The position numbers and the translations under genes were made by a program. A stretch of DNA of 64,000 nt, taken from positions 248,001 to 312,000 of the forward strand of contig NZ_JAUYTP010000008.1 in NCBI RefSeq assembly GCF_030695125.1, given 5' to 3'. Source of the stretch: Allobosea sp. Lineage in GTDB: Bacteria > Pseudomonadota > Alphaproteobacteria > Rhizobiales > Beijerinckiaceae. The stretch's first letter is position 1; each line of letters starts with the position of its first letter. Of this stretch, positions 52,179-54,621 are shown one piece after another. The notes beneath the pieces were generated by a model. That model was not told the origin of the DNA, made no database searches, and saw only the letters and a program-made list of their open reading frames with translations.

Positions 52179-52667
52179 TCAGCCGGCGGCGCGCTCACGC
52201 CCGACCGAGAGCCGCTGCGGCGTCGCGCCCAGGCGCCCCGCCAGCGCATGGCCCTTGGGCAGGATCAGCCCCGGCCGCAGCCGGCGCGGCCCCAGCGACA
52301 GGCCCGCCCGCTCGCGCAGCGAGCCGGAGAGGCCGCGCAGCGGGATCAGCGCCGGCCGCTGCGGGGCGAGAATGAGATGGCGCTCGACCGCCTGCGCCCA
52401 ATGCAGCTCCGGCACGTCGCCGGCTTCGAGCAGGAAGAGCCAGTCCCCGCGCGCCTGGGCGGCGCCGGCGAGCCAGCTTTCCGCACCGTCGGCCCGCAGA
52501 TAGCTCGCGCCTGTCCCGTCGGCGAGGCGCTCGACATCGGCCGTCCCCACGCCGTCGATCACCACGGCATGGCCGAGGAAACCGTCGGCGACGGCCGGAA
52601 TCAGGACGGAGAAGGTCGCGGCGAGCGCCTCAGTCGAACCAGCGACGCGTATGACCGCAGTGAGCAT
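52179..52667 (-). CDS. glycosyltransferase-like conserved protein
   Basis: GARGDWLFLLEAGDVPELHWAQAVERHL-like GT-A segment; conserved Rhizobiales neighbour of smc/DsbA. Confidence 0.6.
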   Translation of the reverse strand: MLTAVIRVAGSTEALAATFSVLIPAVADGFLGHAVVIDGVGTADVERLADGTGASYLRADGAESWLAGAAQARGDWLFLLEAGDVPELHWAQAVERHLILAPQRPALIPLRGLSGSLRERAGLSLGPRRLRPGLILPKGHALAGRLGATPQRLSVGRERAAG

Positions 52668-52721
52668 ACGCAAACCCATATGACGCAGCGCAGCATGTCG
52701 CAATCCTGTCACTTGCAATCT

Positions 52722-52736
52722 GTTCCCTTTATGTTC
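52722..52736. promoter_or_regulatory. LexA/SOS-box-like site
   Basis: GTTC-CCTTTAT-GTTC, exact GTTC-N7-GTTC, 58 nt upstream of the radical SAM ATG. Confidence 0.6.
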
Positions 52737-52793
52737 ACATAGATCGACACCGAATCCGCCGATTCCCGGCGAGGATCAGGCAGGTCCAGCGCC

Positions 52794-53984
52794 ATGCGCC
52801 AGAGCACACCCTCGTCGAGGCCGATTTCAGCGCAGCCGCTGAAGCAGCACGGCAGCCTGCCGATGGCGGTCTCGGCGCGTGTGGCGCCGGTCGAGCCGCT
52901 GGCCTATGCCGGCCACCGCATCGACCCCGAGCGTCGGCGTGGGCGCGGTGCGACGATCAATCCCGGCGGGCGCTACGAGGCGCAGCAACGCATCAGCGAG
53001 GATGATGGCTGGGGCTCGCTGGGCGAGCTCGAACCCTTCAAGACCGAGGTCGCGGTCGAGAAGCCCCGGACGATCATCACGAAGAACGATTCCCCGGATA
53101 TCTCCTTCGACCGCTCGATCAACCCCTATCGCGGCTGCGAGCATGGCTGCGTCTACTGCTTCGCGCGGCCGACCCATGCCTATCTCGGTTTGTCGCCGGG
53201 TCTCGATTTCGAGAGCAAGCTGACCGCCAAGCCCGACGCCGCGCTCCTGCTGGAGAAGGAATTGTCAGCGGCCTCCTACCAGCCGCGCACCATCGCGATC
53301 GGCACCAACACCGACGCCTACCAGCCAATCGAGAAGAAGCTGCGGATCATGCGCAGCATCCTCGAGGTGCTGGAGCGCTTCAACCACCCGGTCGGCATCG
53401 TCACCAAATCGGCGCTGGTTCAGCGCGACATCGACATCCTCGCGCCGATGGCGGCCAAGGGGCTGGCCAAGGTCGCGATCTCGCTGACGACGCTCGACCC
53501 CAAGGTCGCGCGCGGCATGGAGCCGCGCGCTGCCTCGCCCGCCAAGCGGCTGGAGACGATCAAGGCGCTGACGGATGCCGGCATCCCCGTCACTGTGCTG
53601 GTCGCCCCGATCATCCCGGCGATCAACGAGCACGAGATCGAGCGGATTCTGGAAGCGGCGCAGGCGGCCGGCGCGCGCGAGGCCGGCTATGTCCTGCTGC
53701 GCCTGCCGCTGGAGGTGAAGGACCTCGTCCAGGACTGGCTCCTGACCCACCATCCCGACAAGCTGCGCCATGTCGTCTCGCTGATCCGCTCGACCCGCGA
53801 CGGCAAGGATTACGACGCGGCCTGGGGCCAGCGGCAGGTGGGCTCGGGCCCTTACGCCTGGATGATCGGCCGGCGTTTCGAGATGGCGGCCGAGCGTTTC
53901 GGCTTCAACGGCGCGCGGACGCGGCTGCGCAGCGACCTGTTCGTGAAGCCGGAGAAGGATAAGGCGCAGTTGAGCCTGTTTTGA
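52794..53984 (+). CDS. PA0069-family radical SAM protein (SPL-like)
   Basis: INPYRGCEHGCVYCFARPTHAYLGLSPGLDFESKL (CX3CX2C). Confidence 0.92.
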   Translation: MRQSTPSSRPISAQPLKQHGSLPMAVSARVAPVEPLAYAGHRIDPERRRGRGATINPGGRYEAQQRISEDDGWGSLGELEPFKTEVAVEKPRTIITKNDSPDISFDRSINPYRGCEHGCVYCFARPTHAYLGLSPGLDFESKLTAKPDAALLLEKELSAASYQPRTIAIGTNTDAYQPIEKKLRIMRSILEVLERFNHPVGIVTKSALVQRDIDILAPMAAKGLAKVAISLTTLDPKVARGMEPRAASPAKRLETIKALTDAGIPVTVLVAPIIPAINEHEIERILEAAQAAGAREAGYVLLRLPLEVKDLVQDWLLTHHPDKLRHVVSLIRSTRDGKDYDAAWGQRQVGSGPYAWMIGRRFEMAAERFGFNGARTRLRSDLFVKPEKDKAQLSLF

Positions 53985-54008: not shown

Positions 54009-54317
54009 TCAGGCCGCGACCTCCAGCGGCTGTGCCCGCTCGATGCGGGCGCGTTCCGCGGGCGAATGCAGCGTCTCCCAGAGATCGGTCCGTCGCTGCA
54101 CATTGAGCCAGAACTCGGCGGAATTGCCGAAGACGCGGGCGAGGATGAGCGCGGTGGCGGCCGTCAGGCCCCGGCGATCCCGGCAGAGTTCGTTGACATG
54201 CTTGCGGGGCACGCCCATCGCCTGGGCCAGCCGAATCTGCGTCAGCCCCAACGGCCGCATGAACTCCTCGACCAGGATTTCGCCGACCGTGGCGGGTTTG
54301 CGTTTCGTCGTCAGCAT
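54009..54317 (-). CDS. higA: HigA family antitoxin (XRE)
   Basis: TVGEILVEEFMRPLGLTQIRLAQAMGVPRKHVNELCRDRRGLTAATALILARVFGNSAEFWLNVQ. Confidence 0.94.
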   Translation of the reverse strand: MLTTKRKPATVGEILVEEFMRPLGLTQIRLAQAMGVPRKHVNELCRDRRGLTAATALILARVFGNSAEFWLNVQRRTDLWETLHSPAERARIERAQPLEVAA

Positions 54318-54324
54318 GGGCCAC

Positions 54325-54621
54325 CTATCGATAGCTGTGGTCGTCGAGATACAGGCCGCGCGCCTCGCCGCGGCGCCCGTCCCAGGCAAAGATCAGCCGC
54401 CACTGTTGGTTGACCCGGATGCTGTGCAGCCCATCCAGCGCACCCCGCAGTTTCTCGAAATGGTTGCTCGGCGGCACGCGCAGATCAGAATCGGTCGCCG
54501 CGTCGTCGATCATCTGCAGTTTGCGGAACAGGCGCGCCTCGATCTCGGGCGGAATCTGTTTCGCGTGGACGTCATCGACGAAGAAGGCCCGCAGCCAGTC
54601 ATCCCGAAAACTGACGATCAT
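54325..54621 (-). CDS. higB: HigB/RelE family toxin
   Basis: ARLFRKLQMIDDAATDSDLRVPPSNHFEKLRGALDGLHSIRVNQQWRLIFAW. Confidence 0.93.
   Translation of the reverse strand: MIVSFRDDWLRAFFVDDVHAKQIPPEIEARLFRKLQMIDDAATDSDLRVPPSNHFEKLRGALDGLHSIRVNQQWRLIFAWDGRRGEARGLYLDDHSYR

Follow-up and report, generated by a model that had tools for sequence, protein, structure and literature searches.

The locus examined here raises two questions: whether a short direct repeat between two divergent genes places a radical-SAM gene under the control of LexA, and what kind of enzyme that gene encodes. We analyzed a 64,000-nt stretch of Allobosea sp. DNA (the window) from a genome whose nearest named relatives are Bosea. 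A sequence-only reading of the window had placed the repeat at 52722, its start 72 nt before the radical-SAM ATG, and had noted a divergent gene starting at 52667; we verified the coordinates and the distance, and such an open reading frame is present. The features of the locus are as follows.

52179..52667, minus strand: divergent open reading frame of 162 aa, its start 55 nt from the box
52712..52718, plus strand: CTTGCAA, candidate −35 element of the radical-SAM promoter; CTTGC does not vary among 30 Bosea-group loci aligned at the box
52722..52736, plus strand: putative LexA operator (SOS box) GTTC-CCTTTAT-GTTC, sequence GTTCCCTTTATGTTC; half-sites invariant in the 30 Bosea-group loci
52737..52740, plus strand: ACAT, putative part of the operator or promoter, directly 3′ of the box and invariant in the genus
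52794..53984, plus strand: PA0069-family radical-SAM gene, 396 aa (NF033668; Pfam PF04055)
54009–54621, minus strand: HigB/HigA-type toxin–antitoxin pair (PF05015, PF01381), between the radical-SAM gene and rnhB

The repeat has the form of the alphaproteobacterial LexA operator, GTTC-N7-GTTC, and lies on the plus strand upstream of ATG 52794, the earliest in-frame start codon following a stop. By itself the motif does not exceed chance: the window holds two copies, with at least two also present in 20 of 100 shuffles, and the 5.13-Mb genome holds 76 copies, against 68 for the reversed pattern. The spacer is atypical, with TAT instead of TTT ahead of the second GTTC. In a spacer matrix built on six canonical SOS boxes of the same genome, the box at 52722 ranks tenth among the 76 genome sites, and its score is only moderate; because this small matrix was trained on six of the nine sites that outrank the box, we treat this ranking as a consistency check only.

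Read locus by locus, the host genome (G000) both encodes LexA and uses this motif at core SOS genes. The LexA gene (TIGR00498) lies on contig C84 and is preceded by a box at a distance of 68 nt, and boxes also precede recA, an ImuA-like gene (45.5 bits, under its model's cut-off), ssb, comM/yifB and dnaB. The genome contains a second radical-SAM gene, a member of TIGR03916 (rSAM_link_UDG, 562.7 bits; L145:815–2047, minus strand, contig C71), with a box, GTTCATTATTTGTTC, at L145:2061–2075, about 13 nt upstream of the gene start. Like the gene at 52794, it has a consensus LexA box just upstream, but it belongs to another family, described as 'putative DNA modification/repair' and linked to uracil-DNA glycosylase. 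It is likely also an SOS member, and with this box two radical-SAM genes of the host genome appear to be SOS-controlled. Elsewhere, a consensus-like box, GTTCCTGATTTGTTC, in the region L146:207–1639 (contig C77, near the contig end) adjoins a ferritin-like (Dps-type) gene and a Fur-family gene. Another, GTTCTTGTTTCGTTC (L142/L314, contig C51:30682–32220), lies ~1.2 kb from an S24-peptidase domain of the LexA/UmuD/phage-repressor type; the open reading frames tested beside it gave no family match.

The box at 52722 is promoter-proximal and conserved at orthologues. Among close orthologue loci from Bosea and other Hyphomicrobiales, an exact box lies near the gene start in 109 of 110, a set that includes the window's own locus and may count a few genomes twice. 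In most of these 109 loci the box is at most about 200 nt upstream of the start; in a few of the 110, the aligned start falls after or before the true one, which makes the box seem slightly internal. The sole locus lacking the exact box, L097, has GTTTATTTTTTGTTC upstream. Across the class, the exact box is found in 29 of the 30 top-scoring loci and in 52 of another 60 loci from Alphaproteobacteria, most of them the single representative of a family (reversed pattern, 1/60). Seven of the eight without it carry a one-mismatch version 50–92 nt upstream of the model start. Kinship among these genomes means that the counts cannot be treated as independent; even so, chance is untenable given how many families the box spans. 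The sequence-only reading had named conservation of the box upstream of orthologues in relatives as its check, which these loci bear out.

In beta- and gammaproteobacteria, the LexA site is CTGT-N8-ACAG instead of GTTC-N7-GTTC. This second motif lies 35–103 nt upstream of the model start in 23 of 32 orthologues from non-alphaproteobacterial Pseudomonadota, among which neither the alphaproteobacterial box nor a control palindrome occurs (0/32 each); the other nine have no CTGT-N8-ACAG within 350 nt upstream, even at one mismatch. The motif has thus changed while a LexA site has been kept at the gene, which indicates that LexA regulation follows the radical-SAM gene. The idea that the box at 52722 is a functionless chance match, which the near-equal genome counts of motif and reversed pattern would favor, is refuted by its positional conservation in nearly all orthologues of the class and by the operator switch in other classes, and we regard it as vanishingly improbable.

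LexA control of the radical-SAM gene is thereby supported as far as sequence comparison reaches, and LexA presumably binds 52722–52736. The suggestion of the sequence-only reading that the enzyme may be damage-inducible gains strong support from this comparison, since LexA control makes inducibility probable; we consider induction of the gene by damage very likely.

What does the gene encode? The protein belongs to the PA0069 family, matching NF033668 over profile positions 1–348 of 348 at 557.5 bits (cut-off, 360). Seven control genomes have a match to this model, and one, presumably Caulobacter, exceeds the cut-off. The next closest curated model, that of the Rv2578c family (NF038135), is matched at 219.7 bits over residues 99–333, far under its cut-off of 430 bits, and PADLOC gave no match. 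The protein holds exactly three cysteines, in the arrangement C115-X3-C119-X2-C122; all three are cluster ligands and are invariant across 70 sequences, forming the CX3CX2C motif of spore photoproduct (SP) lyase (SPL). We modeled the structure from 70 related sequences (mean pLDDT of 76.8, pTM of 0.77, with low confidence at residues 1–41 and 123–128). The six best PDB fold matches to the model are all SPL (E of about 1e-7, TM of about 0.5, 15–16% identity), and a profile comparison with SPL aligned one local stretch, residues 201–276 (E of 1.6e-5). SPL appeared among PDB entries in the fold search only; querying the PDB with the protein sequence alone returned nothing, and a profile search matched SkfB and NifB and not SPL. 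Together, the fold matches and the local profile match make it likely that the modeled enzyme is remotely related to SPL, with which it also shares TK and EP...RL...VAPI stretches (PDB 4FHC and 4K9R).

Kinship probably does not extend to SPL's known catalysis. SPL depends on a fourth cysteine, which in Bacillus subtilis is C141, for hydrogen-atom return, and its Y99 sits in the radical path (PMC3742179). The PA0069-family protein lacks this fourth cysteine, and no further cysteine column is conserved in the family alignment; at the position after the third cysteine, which corresponds to Y99, 61 of 70 sequences have F and 9 have Y. Aligned by eye, the SPL cysteine falls at T171, beside a strictly conserved NTDxYQPxE stretch. 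The SPL family model, TIGR04070, was unmatched by the window protein at E 0.001 and by any protein of the host genome, and its cut-off was reached in none of 249 Pseudomonadota genomes. The earlier description of the enzyme as 'SPL-like' therefore stands for the fold and fails for the catalysis. We observed a separate near-SPL protein besides the PA0069-family gene in a few relatives (L310 and L311; genomes G349 and G502, of the same family); it scores about 282 bits to TIGR04070 and E 2.6e-60 to PDB 4FHC, and it retains the extra SPL cysteine.

The published record bears on the same point. A 2012 study predicted that LexA controls splB in alpha- and betaproteobacteria, stressed the change of motif and termed the gene a predicted photolyase (PMC3323433); SplB (COG1533) has been listed among SOS-regulated genes in several groups (PMC8565304), and SplB-like radical-SAM proteins have been tied to SOS operons (PMC3765255). 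The Caulobacter and Dinoroseobacter papers on the SOS response that we searched do not mention a PA0069-family gene under the terms used. Because none of the 249 Pseudomonadota genomes reached the cut-off of the SPL model, what the SOS literature on these bacteria calls splB is very probably the PA0069 family (NF033668). Like the present gene, the splB of PMC3323433 is an SPL homolog with GTTC-N7-GTTC in alphaproteobacteria and another LexA motif in betaproteobacteria; that prediction concerned species with several chromosomes, whereas ours covers many more families, is tied to NF033668 and includes the absence of the SPL cysteine. With the LexA–splB prediction already in print, what the sequence-only reading proposed was mostly known; what is new here is the quantified spread with controls, the NF033668 assignment and the absence of the catalytic cysteine. 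With that cysteine missing, the usual 'photolyase' label is not to be trusted. A true SPL that repairs 5-thyminyl-5,6-dihydrothymine in dried or UV-exposed cells, as the name splB implies, would accord with the fold and profile matches and with the published label, but the missing cysteine, the prevalence of F at the Y99 position and the unmatched family model make it improbable, and SPL activity as known is unlikely in the enzyme.

The position of the box also admits control of the divergent gene. In the 30 Bosea-group loci, both GTTC halves, ACAT and the upstream CTTGC are invariant, and bases vary from about +20. CTTGCAA plausibly serves as the −35 element, and LexA would cover the spacer. 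Class-wide, the distance from the box to the radical-SAM start clusters at 36–42 nt, with a mode of 39 nt; this mode suggests, as a conjecture, that outside Bosea the −35 element coincides with the second half-site and the leader is very short or absent. By a similar conjecture, the Bosea leader is longer, possibly in connection with its unusual spacer. The divergent open reading frame, for which a longer form from TTG at 52718 is possible, has no match in Pfam or NCBIfam; of 110 loci, 76 have it detectably beside the radical-SAM gene and 99 have rnhB downstream. Of the other 109 loci examined, only 4 have the HigB/HigA-type pair, which is therefore a recent or patchy insertion. Conservation of 52677–52711, between box and divergent gene, runs at about 90% among Bosea relatives, with no obvious codon pattern; this stretch is perhaps the promoter or leader of the divergent gene.

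This conserved neighborhood means that LexA control could be shared. The proximity of the divergent start, the frequency of the gene and the conservation of the intervening stretch would fit a box that acts mainly on 52179–52667, or on both genes rather than the radical-SAM gene alone. Against this, the box is kept at loci without a detectable divergent gene, its class-wide distance to the radical-SAM start is clustered, and non-alphaproteobacterial orthologues retain a LexA box with no significant divergent-gene match, which indicates that the box tracks the radical-SAM gene. We consider control centered on the divergent gene, or divided between the two, rather unlikely.

Our favored explanation, in which we place high confidence, is that the box is a LexA operator repressing the PA0069-family gene and that the product is an SOS enzyme of the SPL superfamily with chemistry unlike that of SPL. 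LexA bound across the promoter would block transcription; upon DNA damage, single-stranded DNA would give rise to RecA filaments and LexA self-cleavage, and the gene would be induced alongside recA, imuA and ssb. The enzyme would most likely act on damaged DNA or nucleotides by means of SAM and a 4Fe–4S cluster and would work without SPL's cysteine-based hydrogen return.

The alternative that survives best accepts SOS induction and places the product outside DNA repair, with RNA, the nucleotide pool or protein as examples of its target. Non-repair genes do occur in SOS regulons, the PA0069 family is uncharacterized, and the model bears a likeness to other radical-SAM enzymes as well, among them SkfB and NifB. 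The nearest fold, however, is that of a DNA repair enzyme, and the other boxes identified in the genome are found mainly upstream of genes for repair and replication. We therefore hold a product acting outside repair to be a minority possibility, if a real one, and a DNA-repair role to be plausible and unproven.

Starting from a lone motif, these analyses firmly assign an uncharacterized enzyme family to the SOS regulon; the family appears to be under LexA through two operator types. More tentatively, and with somewhat less than even confidence, we propose that the PA0069 family forms its own branch of the SPL superfamily, cysteine-independent, and reverses or processes a non-SP DNA lesion, that it is among the most consistently LexA-controlled uncharacterized genes of Pseudomonadota and that the name splB, or photolyase, hides it. 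The missing cysteine makes the question of its substrate concrete and testable in an alphaproteobacterium such as Caulobacter.
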